Shown here piece after piece: positions 4,369 to 24,393 of a DNA stretch of 27,037 nucleotides. The stretch comes from a virus. The translations under genes were made by a program, and so were the position numbers. The first letter of the stretch is position 1, and every line of letters begins with the position of its first letter. The notes below the pieces were generated by a model. The model worked only from the letters and a program-made list of their open reading frames with translations, made no database searches and was not told the origin of the DNA. The stretch covers positions 1 to 27,037 of IMG/VR virus record IMGVR_UViG_3300010399_000074; one strand, 5' to 3'.

Positions 4369-6804
4369 TTAAGATTCATCCTGAGTCCACCTGACGCCGT
4401 TTACGGTGGATTCCGTTGTAAAAGGCTGGATTGCCTCTCTCACCAGTGATGCGCCAACTACACGATAAATTTGAACGCCATCGTGGGTAAGGCCCCCCCC
4501 GCTAGCGCCGACAGCAACATATGTGCCGTTGGAATTGATGCTAATGTCAACGCCGCCCCCTATAGGCTGGCTTGGCGCAAGCACACCATTAGATATAGAC
4601 GAACCACTAAACGCGTATATCCGAAGCTGACCGTTAGACCTTAGTGTGTAAATATAGTTTCCGTCTTTAGACCAAACAGCACCAGCGTTTACCAATCCAA
4701 GCCCATCCGGATTGATTGCAACAGTTGTAGCCGCAGAGCCATTGTCCAGCATAACTACAAGCTGATTTGACGAACCTGAAACAATGTAATTTCCGCGCCA
4801 CATCAAACTGATTGGAGTCGTCCCATTGGTGTACGACTGACCATATCGGGGCGTCCCGAGAATACCTAGGGTTACATTGAAGATCGCTACTGAGCCAGTA
4901 GCCCCGGCGTACTCCTTTGATGCGACGATCTTTGTTCCGTCCTCATTCCAGGCAATAGCAAAACCGCCTGCAAGCATGTTGGCTTGTGATCTGAACGTAA
5001 ACACCCCGGCAATAATTTCATAGACCATAACCCTGGGAGTTGCACCACCCTGAAGAAGGGCAAAGTACTTGCCGTCAGGACTGAATGCGGTTGAATTTAC
5101 AAGAGTCGTCGGTGGAGTGGACGGCGTTGGAAGTGCATCGTAGCCGGTAGCATCGGCCTTCTTCTTCCTAAGAGCGATGAAAGGCGATCCTACAATGCCT
5201 GCTGCAATGTATAGCGTATTGGGTGACACTGACAGGCTTCGAGAAACAGAACTCGAAATACCAATCGGGGTGCTTTCTTGAATATTTGAGGGCGCTCCAG
5301 TGAATAGGTAGAGCGTAGTAGCAAGCGCCATTAACGAAGACTGCACATTTATCTGCACAGCAATCTCGTCCCACATGCCACCCGCATCCGTGGCACGGAC
5401 GTACACAGCAAATGTGCCAGATTCCTCTGGTGTTCCTGAGATCACCCCGGCGCTATTCATGCTCAAGCCGAGAGGCAATGCGCCGTCCACGATTGCCGCA
5501 GTTACAGGCGGAGTGCCTCCCGTAATGGAGAAACTGAATGTGTAGGGGACACCACGAATAGCAACCGGGGGAGTTCCGGAAATAGTAGGCGACGGCGGCT
5601 GTCCAGGGAACGGTACAGGTACCGTCTCCGGACCTTGGCCAGTATCAAAGATCAGCTCTGCCTTATTGATTCCGATCAGGCTTTGATTGTTGGACATAAC
5701 GGGGCTGACGCGGCGAGATATGAATTCATCTACGCCTTCCAGTACGTATTCCCAATTCAACTCCCACAGACGGCCATTCTGAAAGTCACCGCCATACCAG
5801 TTGCGTCCCCACTTGACCGTATTCGCCAACCGCCAGCGGTCCAGCCCGTAGGACTCACGGCGGGTCCAAAGGCCGGAAACCACGTCATATCCCCAGGTCT
5901 GCCCGTCAGGGAAGGTGAGGTAATAGACCTTGAAGCCCTCGTCCTCCCAGGTAAAGGCAAATGCCTCCGCCCAATTTAGATTGGCAAATGCACGAGCCAT
6001 TGGCCCTGTAGACACAGGAATAGCCGAGTATCCATTCATTCGGTACACAACACCATCATCGCCCAGCCAGAACAGGGTGTTATCCAGCTTTGCGATAGTG
6101 TGCCGGGACGAACAGCCACGGGTAATCGTCTGCCTGCGGTTCTGGAAGGTGCCAGTGGTGCCGCCTGCGTTGTAGAAGAACTCAATAGTCCTTTCGCCGA
6201 AAACCACAACCTCAAACTGGCTCACGGCCAGCCCTACGATGCGATCAGGTGATGCCTCCGCTTCGTACCGGTCAAGGGTGTTGTAGTCGGTGGCGTCTGC
6301 CAAATTGGAGTGGAACCAAAACCTGCCAAGAGGCTCTACGCCCAACAGGTAGGAATCCAGATAGTCAGACGAGATGGAACCCGGATACCCCTCGTCGGTG
6401 ATCTTTGCAAAAGTGCCGGTGCTGGTTGTGAACACATACCCCCCGCCGCCTTGCCCATTCTCCACAAGGAGCTGGTTGCCGGTCTGGAACTGGTTGTGCG
6501 TCATCTGCACTCGACCCAGCCCAGGAATAACGCCAATCGGAATCCCTACGCCCGCTGAGTCTATGCGGTATAGGACGGTTCCGGAGACAACGAAACGCCC
6601 ACCCTCAAGGTCATGGATGCCACGGATAGGGCCTGCACCGACTTGGATATAGGGCTTCAGACCTGGGGGCGTCTTCAGGTATTTAGGCGTCAGCGTACCG
6701 GCTACTTCCGCCATGACGGGGAGCCAGTTCACCGTATCCTGCGCGCCCCACGGGAGCGTGTCATCCTTGTAGAACCCGCCGATCAGGTCAACAGCAGTTG
6801 CCAT
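4369..6804 (-). CDS. gp10-like tail hub protein with added Ig-like and beta-propeller domains
   Basis: The protein has 811 residues. Residues 1-390 look like P22 gp10 (packaged DNA stabilisation, tail hub), starting GGFYKDDTLPWGAQDTVNWL and including ERTIEFFYNAGG and RDG-like beta-rich repeats. The gp10 pattern stops at FDTGQGPE. It is followed by a proline linker and an Ig-like domain of the He_PIG/cadherin-like type (about 400-490, with GALPLGLSMNSAGVISGTP). Residues 495-811 hold WD40-like propeller repeats (STAFSPDGKYFALL, AIAWNEDGTKIVAS, AVWSKDGNYIYTL, VRWTQDES). The propeller DNA (about 4370-5330) looks lower in GC than its flanks. The start overlaps the gp4-like stop (TGATG). The extra domains suggest a surface-exposed binding role. 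Confidence 0.88.
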   Translation of the reverse strand: MATAVDLIGGFYKDDTLPWGAQDTVNWLPVMAEVAGTLTPKYLKTPPGLKPYIQVGAGPIRGIHDLEGGRFVVSGTVLYRIDSAGVGIPIGVIPGLGRVQMTHNQFQTGNQLLVENGQGGGGYVFTTSTGTFAKITDEGYPGSISSDYLDSYLLGVEPLGRFWFHSNLADATDYNTLDRYEAEASPDRIVGLAVSQFEVVVFGERTIEFFYNAGGTTGTFQNRRQTITRGCSSRHTIAKLDNTLFWLGDDGVVYRMNGYSAIPVSTGPMARAFANLNWAEAFAFTWEDEGFKVYYLTFPDGQTWGYDVVSGLWTRRESYGLDRWRLANTVKWGRNWYGGDFQNGRLWELNWEYVLEGVDEFISRRVSPVMSNNQSLIGINKAELIFDTGQGPETVPVPFPGQPPSPTISGTPPVAIRGVPYTFSFSITGGTPPVTAAIVDGALPLGLSMNSAGVISGTPEESGTFAVYVRATDAGGMWDEIAVQINVQSSLMALATTLYLFTGAPSNIQESTPIGISSSVSRSLSVSPNTLYIAAGIVGSPFIALRKKKADATGYDALPTPSTPPTTLVNSTAFSPDGKYFALLQGGATPRVMVYEIIAGVFTFRSQANMLAGGFAIAWNEDGTKIVASKEYAGATGSVAIFNVTLGILGTPRYGQSYTNGTTPISLMWRGNYIVSGSSNQLVVMLDNGSAATTVAINPDGLGLVNAGAVWSKDGNYIYTLRSNGQLRIYAFSGSSISNGVLAPSQPIGGGVDISINSNGTYVAVGASGGGLTHDGVQIYRVVGASLVREAIQPFTTESTVNGVRWTQDES

Positions 6805-9953: not shown

Positions 9954-12008
9954 TCACTGGTAAGGTCTAAACTGGTCAGGAAACACCGTAGGGGACTGCA
10001 ACTGACGTTGCACCAACCCCATCACCGTCTCCTGAGCCTGAAGCTCTAGTGCACTGGCGGCATTATCAATCTGTTTGCCTTGATTATCTAGTGCCTGCCC
10101 TTCTGCCTCTACGGCGTACTTCTGAGCCTGGGCTGCATCCTTCTGCGCCTTGGCGACCTGATCCGGGCTAGGCTGCTGCGGCTGAGGCGGTTCGTCGCCC
10201 TCTTCCTGCGCCAGCGGAATACCCTGGGAAATAAGAATCTTGCGGGCAATATCGGCGAACTCGGAGATACCGGGAGTATCCATATACTTGAGGATGCCGT
10301 AGGCAAACACTGCACCCATCGGCCCCTGAATCTGTGCCAGATCGGTAAGCGCTGCAAGGGTTTCCATGCGCTGAGTGGTAAAGCTCGGCCCCACAGTCAC
10401 AGTCACATCGTACTTACCCTTGGACAGGTCGTTTACCTTCTCCCACCGCTGAGCAGCCTCATCCCATACTGGGCGATTCACCCGAATATACCTTTCCTCA
10501 TTAGCCTCACCAAGAATGCGGATCTCGCGCTCAGTGGTGTAAATCTTGTCGATCAGGTCATTGATGATGACGCCGGTATATTGGATCGCCTTAGCGATGT
10601 TATCGCTATAGTTGAAATTGGCGACGTCACCTTCATGTTGGCGAGCAAGGATGGCCCGGCCACTGGTTTCGTTGGATCGGTTACCCAGACTCGCATCATG
10701 GACGCCCGAAGTCGCTTTCAAGTTCTCCACGTTCTGACGGTTGAGGTCGAACCAGCCAGCAGGCAGGGCGGGCGGCTGCAACCGTGCAGGGCCGCCAGGG
10801 GAATCCGGATCAGGGTTGTAGGGAAGCACAGGCGGGTTATCCACCGCCATGTTCTGCCACTCATTCTCATAGCCCTGAATCATGGTCGCGGTGACCATGT
10901 ATGGAGCCTTCGGCTGGGAGGCCACAACCTCAACCATGTTGGACTGGCTGAAGTTAATCATGATCTGCGAGTCACGGGACGGGCGAACCATGCCATTCCA
11001 GAAGAACTCGCCGTCAATATTGACCGTATCGCCCCACACAGGGACCAGCGGAATGTACTTTCCCGCCCACTCTGTCGGGCCTTCCAGGGTTTCATCCCCG
11101 GACAGAAGCTCCACCGTAATGCGGTCGTATTCCACCACGCGCTTCGCCACCACAGTGACAGGCGGATAGGCTGGCTGGCCCGTCATCGGGTCTACAGGCG
11201 GGTTAGCGGCCTGATCCCTGACGAGATCGAAGGATTCAGCGTCCACCACTCGCCCATCGGACAGGCGGTAGATCGTCTTTTCCTCGCGATGCTTGGCCCA
11301 GTACCGGCAGACACGGACATTCTCTTTGCTATACCAGCCGTCGTAGTAAAGACCGCTTGGCAGGCCCGAATCGAAACTCTTGATTTCCTTGTCCGGGTAC
11401 TTCTGGCGGAACTCCTGCCGGGACATGGAGTCAACCTCAAACGCATAGCGTGCGTCCGAACGGTCAATCTCTCGGGAACAGGGATCGAAGAAGACGGAGA
11501 ACGGATTCTCGATCCGCTTGATATAGATATCCTGATCGAACGTGTCATCGTCCGAGTAGCGCGTACCTACCGCCCAGCAGCCAAAACCGCCTGCGATGGC
11601 GTACATCGAACCCCAGTCATAGGCTACGTCGGCGTTCGACTGCATTTCGATATTGCGGATAAGCCCCTGGCGCAGTTCTGCACCTTCCTTATCGCTATTT
11701 TCCACCGGACTGACGCGGATGGTCGGCGTGTTACGGCGGTTATCGTTCAATACCTGCTTGATCGTCTGACGGAGGTAGTTGAACTCATAGCGAGGGCGTC
11801 CACCACGCAGGGAAGACATATGCGTGTCCCACTGGTTCCCCGGCACAAAGGCGAAGCGCACATCGTCCTGCGCCTGCTGATACATGGAGACGACGGCGCT
11901 CTCAGCGTCCTTGAACCGCTGGCGGATCTCATAGAACCGGTCCTCGCTGGGCTTCTCAGAGTCCAGCAACTTGTCCCGGCGTGCGCCTTCCTCGTCGATT
12001 ACGGTCAT
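9954..12008 (-). CDS. Portal protein, P22 gp1-like
   Basis: The protein has 684 residues (P22 portal 725). The N-terminal core contains DVRFAFVPGNQWD, then RPRYEFNYLRQTIKQVLND and RRNTPTIRVSP, the hallmark of the P22-type portal family. The C-terminal 80 residues (from about 600) are Gln/Ala-rich, as expected for the barrel helix inside the head. It forms the dodecameric DNA-packaging vertex and docks the terminase and gp4-like protein. The ATG overlaps the terminase stop as TAATG, so translation is coupled. Confidence 0.95.
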   Translation of the reverse strand: MTVIDEEGARRDKLLDSEKPSEDRFYEIRQRFKDAESAVVSMYQQAQDDVRFAFVPGNQWDTHMSSLRGGRPRYEFNYLRQTIKQVLNDNRRNTPTIRVSPVENSDKEGAELRQGLIRNIEMQSNADVAYDWGSMYAIAGGFGCWAVGTRYSDDDTFDQDIYIKRIENPFSVFFDPCSREIDRSDARYAFEVDSMSRQEFRQKYPDKEIKSFDSGLPSGLYYDGWYSKENVRVCRYWAKHREEKTIYRLSDGRVVDAESFDLVRDQAANPPVDPMTGQPAYPPVTVVAKRVVEYDRITVELLSGDETLEGPTEWAGKYIPLVPVWGDTVNIDGEFFWNGMVRPSRDSQIMINFSQSNMVEVVASQPKAPYMVTATMIQGYENEWQNMAVDNPPVLPYNPDPDSPGGPARLQPPALPAGWFDLNRQNVENLKATSGVHDASLGNRSNETSGRAILARQHEGDVANFNYSDNIAKAIQYTGVIINDLIDKIYTTEREIRILGEANEERYIRVNRPVWDEAAQRWEKVNDLSKGKYDVTVTVGPSFTTQRMETLAALTDLAQIQGPMGAVFAYGILKYMDTPGISEFADIARKILISQGIPLAQEEGDEPPQPQQPSPDQVAKAQKDAAQAQKYAVEAEGQALDNQGKQIDNAASALELQAQETVMGLVQRQLQSPTVFPDQFRPYQ

Positions 12009-13531
12009 TATGCGAATTCCGATCTAAATTTAAGGCGGACGGGAGCTTTCGGGGGAGCAACAGGTTCCGCAAAGGTCAGCGCCAGGGCATCCCATGCGTC
12101 AGGACTGGCAACGCCTCGTGCGCGCATCTGCTCTTTACTCTCAAGGATTACTCGGCTGCTGGAATCATAACGGTATCCGGGGCCACATGCATCCGCCTGC
12201 AATCTATCCTCATCGGGGATATCTGCGCCCGTCTCACTTTCCAGCCATTCCTTAGAGGCCATCCACATTTCGGCTCGACGATTAACTGGCCCGCCGCCAA
12301 TCTCATTACCCTTGTCATCGTATCTGGCAGGCTGGATTGCGGCTGAGCCAAAGTTAACGGCTACCGCGATTCCCTTACCCCTGGGAGCTGGACCATAGCC
12401 TTGCTCTACCAGTCGGTCATAGACGCCCGCACCCAATCCGCCCACGTCGATAAACATGCGGGCCGGTGATTCCTTGTCTATGACGTTCTTAGCCCAGCCT
12501 GCAACCTGCATGGTGTCCCACTTGGTCTTGCGGTCGATCACCCACGCCTTCTGACCCCTGCGGGCCATCATCACGCTACTGTCATCGCCGAATCGCGCCG
12601 GGTCCAAGCCAATAATGAGCGGGCCAACAGGCTCGCGCTCCATCTTGCGGGCAGCTACCACCAACTCAGGCTTGATATAGCTGTCGTGGCCGGACATTTG
12701 GAACGCCTCAGCCGCAGTGGCCGGGTATTCCTGTTTGAACAGGTTGGCGTCCTTTAGCTGGACAATCTTCAGCCTGCGCCAATAGATCTGCTCCCAATCC
12801 AGACTATAGGCATTGGCATATGCCTGCTCTTCCTCGTTCAGGGTGAACTGAGGGGGCAGCTCCTTCCTATACTCTTCCTGCCAGTACCAAGGCACAAAGA
12901 TGGCGATGAAGCCGCTGATGCCTGCCTCAGCCTCTTGCCATGACTGGTGGTAGTAGTTGCCCACACCATTGGCCGTGGACTCAAGGATGACCTCAGTCCC
13001 AGGCTCATCAGGGACAGCCTGAAGCACACCCGCAGCATGCGCCTCGGCATTTGGCCAAAACGCGACCTCAGAGCCGTGGAAGCGCTGAGCGGTCATGGAT
13101 CGGCCTACACCTTTGTTGCCAGCCGTACCCACCCGATAGCCAGAGTCGATCTTGTCGAATACCAGCTCCTTGGCGTTCGCAGCACCAGTGCTGGGCTTGA
13201 CGAACGGAGGGCAGTTCTCATGGTATCGGTTGACCATCTCAAACAGGTTCTGCGTCGCCTTGTCCTCATGGGTGAGGATGAAGGTGCGGATACCCTTATG
13301 CCAAGTCGTCTGATGGTAGAAACGGGCTGCCACGTAAGATGAACAGCCCTGCTGGCGACCTTTGAGGATTAGCGCACGGACGCGGCCTGTCTCGGCTCTC
13401 TGCTCTTCCAGCTTCTCATGGATATAGCGCTGGGCCTTATTGAGCCTCAGCGCCTGGATCGCCCCGCCCTTAGAGCGAATGACCATGCAATTGGCGGCGT
13501 AGAAGGGGAAATCCTCCTTGAGCCGCCGCAT
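12008..13531 (-). CDS. terL: Terminase large subunit
   Basis: The protein has 507 residues from ATG 13531, 4 nt after the small-subunit stop. The frame is open to 13582, but that start would lie inside terS. The ATPase motifs are the Walker A-like KGRQQGCSS (57-65), the Walker B-like FHGSEVAFWP (151-160) and the coupling motif LESTANG (183-189). Cys replaces the usual Lys of Walker A, as in the RQQG-type adenine motif of this group. The nuclease domain begins at IGLDPARFGDD (about 307-317) and has further Asp residues in FIDVGGLG and DAWDALAL. It powers DNA translocation and cuts the concatemer. Confidence 0.95.
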   Translation of the reverse strand: MRRLKEDFPFYAANCMVIRSKGGAIQALRLNKAQRYIHEKLEEQRAETGRVRALILKGRQQGCSSYVAARFYHQTTWHKGIRTFILTHEDKATQNLFEMVNRYHENCPPFVKPSTGAANAKELVFDKIDSGYRVGTAGNKGVGRSMTAQRFHGSEVAFWPNAEAHAAGVLQAVPDEPGTEVILESTANGVGNYYHQSWQEAEAGISGFIAIFVPWYWQEEYRKELPPQFTLNEEEQAYANAYSLDWEQIYWRRLKIVQLKDANLFKQEYPATAAEAFQMSGHDSYIKPELVVAARKMEREPVGPLIIGLDPARFGDDSSVMMARRGQKAWVIDRKTKWDTMQVAGWAKNVIDKESPARMFIDVGGLGAGVYDRLVEQGYGPAPRGKGIAVAVNFGSAAIQPARYDDKGNEIGGGPVNRRAEMWMASKEWLESETGADIPDEDRLQADACGPGYRYDSSSRVILESKEQMRARGVASPDAWDALALTFAEPVAPPKAPVRLKFRSEFA

Positions 13532-16573: not shown

Positions 16574-16851
16574 TACCTCTTATCCTCTCTGGCTTCCATG
16601 CGGATCACCATATCGCGGACCTCAGATAGGGTGGCCGCAATAGATTCGATTCGTTGGGATTGTTCCTTGAAGTCCTCTCGGCTGGGCATTTCTGCCGCCA
16701 CCTTCATTTCCAGACGGGCTAGACGGTCTTCTGCCGTCCGCATACGGGTATCGGCCTTGTCGGCCTCTTTGTCAGCCTTAGCGGCCATCCTCTGGACCCA
16801 GAAGACGGCAAAGGAGGCAATCAGGGTTGAGGCAAGCATCCACCAGTTCAT
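16573..16851 (-). CDS. Membrane-anchored coiled-coil protein (DUF2730-like)
   Basis: The protein has 92 residues: an N-terminal membrane helix (NWWMLASTLIASFAVFWV) followed by a charged coiled coil (KADKEADKADTRMRTAEDRL). This is the build of DUF2730-type phage proteins that often lie beside endolysin and holin genes. It is coupled to the endolysin by an ATGA overlap and to the next gene by TAATG. The function within lysis is unknown. Confidence 0.7.
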   Translation of the reverse strand: MNWWMLASTLIASFAVFWVQRMAAKADKEADKADTRMRTAEDRLARLEMKVAAEMPSREDFKEQSQRIESIAATLSEVRDMVIRMEAREDKR

Positions 16852-17369
16852 GAGCTGATCCCGAATAGCGCCTTGGCCTGGGCTAGCCTCTCCTTTCTGT
16901 CTTCCAGCCCATTATTACCGCCGTTGACCTTCTTGGTCACCCCGACGATATCATCAGCTTTGGCAAGAGGACGTACAGAGGGACGGCGGATGCACCAGTA
17001 CCATGCGGCTACTTCTACGGCGTCTGGCAGCTCGGCCAGCATTTCGGGATTCTTGACTGCGCGGTCATCACCATACTTCCACGTACTGTAGGCGGAATAG
17101 TTGGATCTTCCAGTATTCTGGATAAGCCCGCGCCCCTTGAATCGGACGCCATCACCCGGCTGGGTGTTCCCTAGGTCTTTTCGGCCTTCGTAGGCTTTCC
17201 CGCTGGCGTATTCGGTTGCCGTATTGAACCCATCGGATTCATGAGCTACCTGGGCGAGGAAATGGCATTTTTCCAGAGTCTCGACAATGCCAAACTGGAT
17301 GCAGGCCCGCTCTAGCGGCTCCGCATATTTCCCCGCACCCATTTTGGCGGCAACCGTCTCTGTACTCAT
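16848..17369 (-). CDS. Endolysin, glycoside hydrolase family 19-like
   Basis: The protein has 173 residues from the ATG at 17369. Longer starts would run into the tRNA-Trp-like gene. The conserved core HFLAQVAHESDGF...TEYASG...YEGR contains the two catalytic Glu expected for GH19 (Glu44 in AHES and Glu53 in TEYAS), followed by FKGRGLIQNTGRSNYS. It cleaves the glycan strands of peptidoglycan. No signal peptide or cell-wall-binding domain is present, so release depends on a holin. It is the first protein gene of the leftward late transcript after the tRNA-like genes. Confidence 0.9.
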   Translation of the reverse strand: MSTETVAAKMGAGKYAEPLERACIQFGIVETLEKCHFLAQVAHESDGFNTATEYASGKAYEGRKDLGNTQPGDGVRFKGRGLIQNTGRSNYSAYSTWKYGDDRAVKNPEMLAELPDAVEVAAWYWCIRRPSVRPLAKADDIVGVTKKVNGGNNGLEDRKERLAQAKALFGISS

Positions 17370-17429
17370 GCGGGGCGAAACCTGTTCTGGATGCTCGCAT
17401 GATACCCATATGGGCCAAGGGTGCAAGTT

Positions 17430-17504
17430 TGGCGAATGGGGAGGGACTCGAACCCCCACTTCCGGTTTTGGAGACCGGCGCTCTGCCAGTTGAGCTACCC
17501 AGAC
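17430..17504 (-). tRNA. tRNA-Trp (CCA anticodon) with a defective acceptor stem
   Basis: A cloverleaf is visible on the minus strand. The D arm is GCTC/GAGC. The anticodon stem CCGGT/ACCGG has loop CTCCAAA, giving anticodon CCA at 17471-17469. The T arm is GGGGG/CCCTC with loop TTCGAGT, and the 3' CCA is encoded at 17432-17430. The acceptor strands GTCTGGG and CCCATTC pair at five of seven positions; 2:71 (U-U) and 3:70 (C-U) do not pair. It is therefore either a tRNA that tolerates mismatches, a recombinant, or a decaying or mimic tRNA. Confidence 0.75.
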
Positions 17505-17610
17505 GTTTGGCGGAGAGTGCCGGAGCTGATCTCGGCTTAGTGCATTTGGATGGCGGATTTGCCTGACCCATCTGCCGCACCTTTTAACCCGTCAGCCCGG
17601 GGTTTCCTCT

Positions 17611-17722
17611 CCATAGCGGTGAAGCCTGACGGGATTCGAACCCGCGACCCCCAATGGCTCCGGCATTTCTGCCCAGCGGAACGGTGTTCTAACCAACTGA
17701 ACTACAAGCCTCACCGCTATGA
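17611..17722 (-). ncRNA. tRNA-like structure with extended acceptor helix and abnormal anticodon arm
   Basis: Minus-strand folding gives a canonical D arm (GTTC/GAAC, loop AGTTGGTTA), a canonical T arm (GCGGG/CCCGT, loop TTCGAAT, 17645-17629) and a 7-bp acceptor (AGGCTTG/CAGGCTT). The acceptor helix continues outward to about 18 bp (17705-17722 with 17611-17628, three G-U pairs). The nucleotides after the acceptor are CACC, so no normal CCA end is encoded. In place of a 7-nt anticodon loop there are 24 nt between weak stem strands CCGTT and ATTGG; they contain the hairpin GGCA-GAAA-TGCC. No standard anticodon can be assigned. Confidence 0.65.
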
Positions 17723-17896
17723 ATCCTGCTATCGGGACGCGGCAGGAACTACGCTCAACGTGACCGGGAATCCCCGATCCAATGCCCGACTCATCGTTGA
17801 ATAGGTGCCACGGTCCCAGCGGGGAGACTGAGCCGTGGCGGACGCTGCTAGACGGGAGGGGTTTCGTCGAACAGCGCCCGGGGAAACCATGCTGTC
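17723..17896. other. Structured non-coding leader upstream of the tRNA-like genes
   Basis: No protein gene is supported. The stretch holds several inverted repeats: GCCACGG/CCGTGGC at 17807-17839, enclosing TCCC-AGCG-GGGA at 17814-17825; GGTTTC/GAAACC at about 17859-17887; and a CGGG-GATT-CCCG hairpin near 17764-17776. It would be the 5' part of the transcript from the promoter at 17897-17924 and may be processed to release the tRNA-like RNAs. Confidence 0.5.
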
Positions 17897-17924
17897 ATCC
17901 TACCAATCCCCGTATTGCTGTCAA
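17897..17924 (-). promoter_or_regulatory. Sigma70-type promoter for the tRNA/lysis/virion transcript
   Basis: A perfect -35 TTGACA (17924-17919) and a -10 TAGGAT (17902-17897, 4 of 6) are separated by 16 nt on the minus strand. The -35 overlaps the TGA stop of the HTH gene. It points at the tRNA-like genes and everything downstream, so it is a candidate late or constitutive promoter. Confidence 0.55.
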
Positions 17925-18160
17925 GCGGCGGAAACGGGCTGACTGAAGAACACAGATACACCCAGCTTCTCCGCCAACGTCAGCAGGTACTCCAAGCGGA
18001 AGTTGGCCGCAGGACGACGCACGATCTCCGACACCTTCGGCTGACCGATACCCAGCTCCTGCGCAATGTCCTTCTGCGACCTCCCCGACGACTTGATGGC
18101 CTCTACTACGTCAGCGTGAACCTCTGTTCGCCACTGCTTTACCTTCTCGCTCTGAATCAT
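17921..18160 (-). CDS. XRE/HigA-type helix-turn-helix protein
   Basis: The protein has 79 residues. The HTH is GRSQKDIAQELGIGQPKVSEIVR (about 26-48), followed by FRLEYLLTLAEKLGVSV, the typical end of small XRE antitoxin-like regulators. The ATG overlaps the stop of the nuclease-like gene (ATGA), so the two are made together. It is the last gene of the early operon, and the late promoter begins at its stop codon, so it may act on that promoter. The target is inferred. Confidence 0.82.
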   Translation of the reverse strand: MIQSEKVKQWRTEVHADVVEAIKSSGRSQKDIAQELGIGQPKVSEIVRRPAANFRLEYLLTLAEKLGVSVFFSQPVSAA

Positions 18161-18474
18161 GACAAATCTACCTCCCTGACTTCCCAGCGTTTAGTTTTAG
18201 GATTCTTCCGCCATCCGTGGACGACGACCCGAATCCCTGCCTCTCGGATAGCGCCGATATGCTCACTATCCGCGATCTTCTTTACTCGATGTGCAATATG
18301 GTCAGCACTAGTTGTCTGCACCCCTAGAACCTCATCCCTGCGGATTGCCAGGATATCGATAATCCCCCACAGGTCTTTCCGGGTTTTGGTAAAGCTGTTG
18401 AATTTTTCGACTACTTCTGCAACATAGCCGTCCTTGCGCAGCTTGGTTAGGCTTCTTACGGTGGGACTACTCAT
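18157..18474 (-). CDS. PD-(D/E)XK nuclease-like protein
   Basis: The protein has 105 residues from the ATG at 18474 (TGATG overlap with the upstream gene). The segment DLWGIIDILAIRRDEVLGVQTTS fits a small PD-(D/E)XK fold: Asp in IDIL, then Glu and Gln-x-Thr in the following strand (E-x-x-G-V-Q-T-T). It is followed by AHRVKKIADSEHIGAIREAGIRVVVHGW. The motif lacks the usual Lys (Gln/Thr instead), as in several phage resolvase-like relatives. It could be a Holliday-junction or other structure-specific nuclease; the exact activity is unproven. Confidence 0.72.
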   Translation of the reverse strand: MSSPTVRSLTKLRKDGYVAEVVEKFNSFTKTRKDLWGIIDILAIRRDEVLGVQTTSADHIAHRVKKIADSEHIGAIREAGIRVVVHGWRKNPKTKRWEVREVDLS

Positions 18475-24235: not shown

Positions 24236-24240
24236 AGAAA

Positions 24241-24345
24241 TACCCTTTAGTGTTCGATGGACCGCATGGATAGCGATCCCCGAGACGGTAGGGTCATTGC
24301 GACCAAGTTAAGGGTCCACAACAGCCCACCGAACACTAAAGGGTA
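24241..24345 (-). promoter_or_regulatory. Structured 5' leader sequestering the HD gene ribosome binding site
   Basis: A perfect 16-bp inverted repeat (24241-24256 with 24330-24345) forms a closing stem whose 3' arm holds the Shine-Dalgarno AAAGGG. Inside are a second stem TGGACC/GGTCCA (24258-24263 with 24313-24318) and two hairpins: GGAT-AGCG-ATCC (24268-24279) and GGTC-ATTGC-GACC (24292-24304). A third strand AAGGGT (24310-24315, minus-strand ACCCTT) could pair with the Shine-Dalgarno instead. The layout resembles a cis-regulatory RNA that controls translation. Confidence 0.6.
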
Positions 24346-24393
24346 CTCGCTACCATCTCTTTTTATCCGGCCGCTAAACCGGGCCAACCTAAG

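Follow-up and report, generated by a model that had tools for sequence, protein, structure and literature searches.

A phage tRNA-like RNA element with a 19-bp closing helix and no anticodon arm

Phage tRNA genes are usually regarded as codon helpers or as substitutes for cleaved host tRNAs, and the acceptor stem of an ordinary tRNA comprises 7 bp. Among the closest described counterparts of the element presented here is YrlA (RF02553), a bacterial Y RNA found with Ro60/Rsr in which, as in our element, a long stem closes a tRNA-like head that does not decode. YrlA has been proposed as a decoy for tRNA-acting enzymes (PMC7790460). Bacterial and phage tRNA-Asp resemble the element in the sequence of the D arm, variable loop, and T arm. 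A pseudo-tRNA of Bacillus cereus, tRNAOther, is likewise a tRNA-like RNA without a role in translation as far as its published description goes (PMC3399842), although, unlike the element, it is chromosomal and island-linked. The Xanthomonas sRNA sX13 (RF02232), which works via C-rich loops (PMC3771888), finds a likeness in the C-rich hairpin loops just upstream of our element but does not include the tRNA-like element itself.

We analyzed a fragmentary virus record of 27,037 bases (the window), in which nearly all genes lie on the minus strand. On that strand, which an earlier note on this DNA had left unstated, lies a tRNA-like element (Table 1) that belongs neither to the decoding tRNAs nor to YrlA and is best classed as a putative tRNA-mimicking non-coding RNA. 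Its score against the YrlA model is 17.1 bits, far under the cut-off of 69, and a TROVE gene was found in none of 10 records, among them the window (a fragment) and two relatives, L253 and L400; on these grounds we rejected its identification as a Y RNA. From tRNA-Asp it differs in the missing anticodon arm, in a closing helix of 19 bp instead of 7 bp, and in a CCA that is not in place. No description of such an RNA was found in the papers searched, which cover part of the literature.

Table 1. Positions of the element, its parts, and neighboring features in the window
Feature	Position	Strand	Basis or remark
Sigma-70-like promoter TTGACA-16-TAGGAT, TG before the -10, pointing into the element	17897..17924	(-)	Motif search
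C-rich-loop hairpin GCCACGG-CTCAGTCTCCCCGCTGGGA-CCGTGGC, in the promoter-to-element interval	17807..17839	(-)	Read from sequence
Whole element	17610..17723	(-)	19-bp closing helix and tRNA-like head; covariance, helix, and fold results
P1 5' strand TTCATAGCGGTGAGGCTTG	17705..17723	(-)	Helix search; inner 17 nt same in L400
D arm GUUC-AGUUGGUUA-GAAC	17686..17702	(-)	Rfam tRNA alignment; absent from minimum-energy fold
Irregular hairpin region in place of anticodon arm and variable loop, 40 nt	17646..17685	(-)	Identical in L253
GGCA-GAAA-UGCC hairpin	17662..17673	(-)	Pair probability 0.88-0.95
T arm GCGGG-UUCGAAU-CCCGU, stacked directly on P1	17629..17645	(-)	Rfam tRNA alignment, fold
P1 3' strand CAGGCTTCACCGCTATGGA	17610..17628	(-)	Helix search; inner 17 nt same in L400
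tRNA-Trp(CCA), encoded CCA, downstream of element	17430..17504	(-)	ARAGORN, Rfam
Endolysin gene, opening the downstream lysis block	16848..17423	(-)	PHROG endolysin, E 3.8e-47

Fold and parts of the element

The closing helix, P1, runs for 19 bp with zero mismatches and includes three G-U pairs, in good agreement with the acceptor helix of about 18 bp with three G-U pairs described in the earlier note. Positions 17711-17621(-) score 43.3 bits with the Rfam tRNA model (cut-off 29; E 2.9e-6), and the likeness of the D arm, variable loop, and T arm to tRNA-Asp comes from alignment with an annotated phage tRNA-Asp. ARAGORN reports "tRNA-???" at 17618-17712 with an "anticodon" of two bases, gc; even with its intron option, it yields no anticodon arm having a 7-nt loop and a defined anticodon, and no C-loop intron was found when introns of 0-40 nt were permitted. 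An anticodon-loop intron, whether group I or short, was discarded on this result, as was a class II tRNA with a long variable arm, for which the ARAGORN version requires a loop of 6 nt and an anticodon of only two bases. The note had the hairpin replacing the anticodon loop, where we likewise find it within the 40-nt irregular region, and had the CCA absent from its proper place; past the T arm the sequence indeed goes on pairing, with no free 3' NCCA. Its view that this cannot be an ordinary decoding tRNA is supported, given that the anticodon arm and 3' CCA are missing, the ends are locked in the helix, and no intron solution exists. The suggestion of a tRNA carrying an insert finds no support: taking out the extra nucleotides does not restore an ordinary anticodon arm, and L253 carries the body at 96% identity.

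Folding of 112 nt gives -53.5 kcal/mol (z -4.7), a value equaled by none of 200 shuffles. Predicted pair probabilities are 0.99-1.0 in P1, except for 0.31 at the outermost U-G of the folded stretch, and 0.84-0.92 in the T stem. The D stem reaches only 0.06, with an alternative hairpin favored by the folding model; by the Rfam tRNA score, however, D and T arms have the canonical form. A fold constrained to contain the D stem lies 2.8 kcal/mol higher in the window and 4.3 in L253, and the resulting cloverleaf has at the anticodon position an irregular arm of ACC/GGU, UU/GG, GCU/AGC, and GGCA/UGCC with the loop GAAA. Because the ordinary tRNA-Trp next door likewise forms no cloverleaf at minimum energy in the same calculation, the low D-stem probability is not strong evidence against a D arm.

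By its score alone, the helix is near chance for 27 kb (17.5, against a best of 17.0 in 12 one-strand shuffles). Two things lie beyond chance: P1 is conserved, and it prolongs the acceptor stem without a shift of register; from base composition, we infer p ~6e-5 per tRNA for ten more unbroken pairs. Helix scores of at least 12 occur in 8 of 628 distinct ARAGORN tRNAs, a biased sample drawn from fetched loci. The element, its L253 copy, and the tRNA-like RNAs of L247 and L285 are among these eight, and so is a tRNA-Pro from the tRNA-rich phage L363, whose anticodon is normal and whose leader and trailer pair over 22 bp. Long pairing of leader and trailer is therefore rare, yet not confined to non-decoding RNAs.

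Relatives and genomic setting

Three members of the element family were found, in the window, L253, and L400. The L253 copy, recovered with a pattern for a tRNA carrying a long insert, is 95.7% identical over 17610-17726, with no identity elsewhere near the element; the terminase of L253 is 91% identical to those of the Xanthomonas phages Olaya and CP2 and only 30% to that of the window, which makes L253 another kind of phage. L400 came to light when the RecA-dependent nuclease gene was used as query. It carries TCCATAGCGGTGAGGCTTG...CAGGCTTCACCGCTATGGA, with the inner 17+17 positions the same as in the window (34/34), and 47 nt replace the tRNA-like body and fold into two hairpins, one GGGC-GAAA-GCCC and the other of 5 bp, which stacks on the stem (fold z -6.3). 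The head thus takes two forms: two hairpins in L400, and in L253 and the window a body derived from tRNA-Asp that lacks an anticodon arm. Between L253 and L400, the 5' flank and both stem arms align whereas the head does not, and the 3' flank GGATGGAA is common to both.

Since the stem is identical in L400 under another head, while the DNA of the shared RecA-dependent nuclease gene is 74-76% identical to that of the window, we take the stem to be the constant part. Judging from the sequences, its identity could instead come from recent exchange between phages rather than from selection. In the search of relatives that the earlier note had proposed, the helix is conserved in L253 and L400, one L253 pair is broken (C-G to U-C), and no compensatory change occurs in the stem among the three members. 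The RecA-dependent nuclease is the sole protein common to the three element phages, so a partner, if any, is probably host-encoded; the nuclease itself was rejected as a partner by shared gene content, given that element-free phages also have one.

Outside this family, a pattern scan of 84,980 bacterial species genomes returned three hits, all unrelated, phage and plasmid records gave no match at 1e-8, and a search of IMG/VR for further stem copies beyond L253 and L400 gave only chance matches (L407, L408). A 92-nt "tRNA-Phe" in L084 was discarded, its surrounding stretch being devoid of tRNA features.

The order in the window is promoter-like site, C-rich hairpins, element, tRNA-Trp, endolysin, and spanin. 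In 17350-18250, one promoter-like site was found on both strands of the 901 nt against 0.3 expected, and no intrinsic terminator was found. C-rich hairpins lie 5' of the element in L253 and L400 too; the sX13 model scores 28.0 bits in L253 and 27.7 in CP2, with a cut-off of 50. The element adjoins RusA in both L253 and L400, and in L253 it comes after RusA at the end of a recombination operon, with a convergent gene next. The operon position of the element site differs among phages, and L002, L004, and L007, relatives by structural genes, have no tRNA at the corresponding place.

In the group of L253 and the Olaya/CP2 phages, the site that follows the recombination genes varies in content: it holds the element in L253 and, in other phages, Y RNAs with Ro60 or nothing. 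The matching interval (RusA to lysozyme) of Olaya and 10KY502B contains several YrlA-like Y RNAs, which score 25-56 bits with the YrlA model, below its cut-off of 69, and their array adjoins a protein with a TROVE domain and a Ro60 vWA domain; that of CP2 and SAC contains neither Y RNA or element nor a Ro60 gene. As read from the sequence, the T arm precedes the D arm in the Olaya Y RNAs, whereas the D arm comes first in the element. Their stem pair GGTTACTTC/GTTCCC is missing from the element, the stem sequences differ, and by eye their conserved motif is not present in the element stem. By analogy, the element is best read as built like Y RNAs, yet not as a Y RNA, and those phages whose matching site carries Y RNAs offer a natural comparison.

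Several further features were seen at these loci. The Y RNA array spans 4370-4960 in L403 (Olaya) and 4370-4940 in L404 (10KY502B), where its RNAs are unannotated apart from one called tRNA-Thr in 10KY502B; the 439-aa TROVE/vWA (Ro60) protein right after it is annotated as hypothetical. In the window, the tRNA-Trp has acceptor pairs 2 and 3 mismatched (U-U and C-U). A long hairpin at window positions 24236-24351(-), with 20 positions, one mismatch, and more pairs further in, has a 3' arm, AACACTAAAGGGTAT, that stops a few bases short of the start codon, ATG (24235), of a gene for an HD-domain phosphohydrolase; control of translation or by RNase III is possible there, and an Rfam mir-6536 match to the same stretch (35 bits, cut-off 100) was set aside as chance. 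On the 3' side of the L253 element, 4750-4835 holds a remnant resembling a tRNA 3' end, GGTTCGAATCCGGAGTAGCACGCACCA, followed by a direct repeat, ATCCATAG, and a GC-rich hairpin then TTTT. The L253 phage also has, at 9038-9136 of L410, another long inverted repeat, ATCCATCC...GGATGGAT (23 positions, one mismatch), whose ends resemble those of the element.

Possible roles of the element

Our leading reading, which we hold tentatively, is that the element is a phage non-coding RNA module and not a decoding tRNA, in which a conserved stem of 17-19 bp and an exchangeable head share the work in the manner of Y RNAs. The Y-RNA-style combination of a conserved stem with a variable, sometimes tRNA-like head is seen, as an analogy based on three members, in the window and L253 compared with L400, and it suggests a viral RNA part that can be exchanged, not a tRNA gene that has broken down. 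The promoter-like site at a fitting position and the four other phage RNAs of like design, in L247, L254, L285, and L310, also favor this reading. In the window, the element would be transcribed from the promoter at 17924-17897 and released from a longer transcript by cutting, for which RNase P acting at the following tRNA-Trp may be one route. The stem would set the 3' end, stopping exonucleases and blocking RNase P, CCA addition, and charging; RNase P is known to be hindered when the leader pairs with the 3' end (PMC10731613). A host protein might bind the stem specifically, and the head could serve as a docking surface, which would be the tRNA elbow in the window phage. A kept elbow, lost decoding, and a conserved stem point to a non-translational use of the tRNA shape.

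The alternative that survives best, although we consider it unlikely, is an element that acts in cis on the processing or stability of the transcript: P1 and the coaxial T stem (the 5-bp hairpin in L400) would together form two helical turns, 22-25 bp in all, that RNase III cuts or that act as a barrier, and would so set the ends of the lysis mRNA or of upstream RNA. It would account for the unbroken helix of 19-20 bp with a 5-bp hairpin stacked directly on it in both the window and L400, a length that may suit an RNase III site of about two turns. It also draws on the lack of an intrinsic terminator and the downstream lysis genes in the window, on the second long hairpin right before the HD gene, and on the long leader-trailer helices that flank some phage tRNAs with normal anticodons (22 bp in the L363 tRNA-Pro). 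However, RNase III does not need stem sequence identity and would have no use for a tRNA body whose D and T loops are intact. A processing signal for the late transcript, as the earlier note had proposed, is possible from the position in the window, between a promoter-like site and tRNA-Trp with the lysis genes, but the L253 copy ends an operon and does not precede lysis genes.

Less probable again is a decoy or inhibitor of tRNA-acting host enzymes (anticodon nucleases, maturation, modification) that keeps the elbow and has shed the cleavable loop. Intact D and T arms beside a missing anticodon loop would suit this role, phages do encode tRNAs that escape tRNA-cleaving defenses (PMC10264068), and anticodon arms are replaced in several unrelated phage tRNA-like RNAs; a decoy, however, has no need for a conserved 19-bp stem, and L400 retains the stem but drops the tRNA-like body, which argues that selection acts on more than tRNA mimicry. 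A decaying tRNA-Asp with chance leader-trailer pairing, or a DNA inverted repeat (a mobile cassette) holding a tRNA gene, is improbable: the body is clearly tRNA-Asp-like, the helix score by itself is near chance in 27 kb, and a near-identical copy in the unrelated phage L253 suits horizontal movement, but that copy is 96% identical, the stem is retained under a different head in L400, the 3' flank shared by L253 and L400 speaks against independent insertions, and phage and plasmid records hold no copy.

Other phage tRNA-like RNAs

Two insert-pattern scans recovered four further RNAs, in L247, L254, L285, and L310, that score above the tRNA cut-off and lack a normal anticodon arm; their closing helices have 15-24 positions with one or two mismatches. 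In L247 and L254, which are related phages, genes for an HNH nuclease, TerS, and TerL follow downstream of the RNA. The two RNAs have the same outer nine pairs, while inner acceptor pairs change on both sides, which directly supports the extended helix in this pair. Bcep176, PHB09, and MT835699, isolated relatives by the L254 terminase, have no such RNA upstream. A broader proposal, that the window element represents an undescribed phage small RNA with a conserved stem of about 19 bp and exchangeable heads, including a tRNA mimic without an anticodon arm, which arose repeatedly (L247/L254, L285, L310) and independently of Ro60, we regard as doubtful. Annotation programs label such genes as undetermined or pseudo-tRNA or give them a false anticodon (L247 is called tRNA-Pro), and the genes are consequently overlooked. 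The GGCA-GAAA-TGCC hairpin also appears in tRNA-like contexts of L270, L272, and L273, where the hairpin was the search criterion, so that we do not read it as a signature.

Different replacements of the anticodon arm were encountered as well. In tRNA-like RNAs of L325, L335, L350, L357, L315, L362, and others, a conserved domain takes the place of the anticodon arm. In this family, with at least 10 members in one scan and most acceptors of about normal length, the domain centers on CTCAUGGY-RAAGG-RCCAAA and covaries from TGGT/ACCA to TGGC/GCCA. The tRNA-like RNAs of L246 and L263 have a conserved loop, UUGCCAUUGC, instead of an anticodon loop, on a compensated stem (CCCTGC/GCAGGG versus ACACGC/GCGTGT). 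Long helices also close two tRNAs of L363, both within a cluster of 26 tRNAs: tRNA-Pro(UGG) at 10199-10274(-), whose 22-bp leader-trailer helix is perfect, and tRNA-Met at 12277-12350(-), with a helix of about 24 positions.
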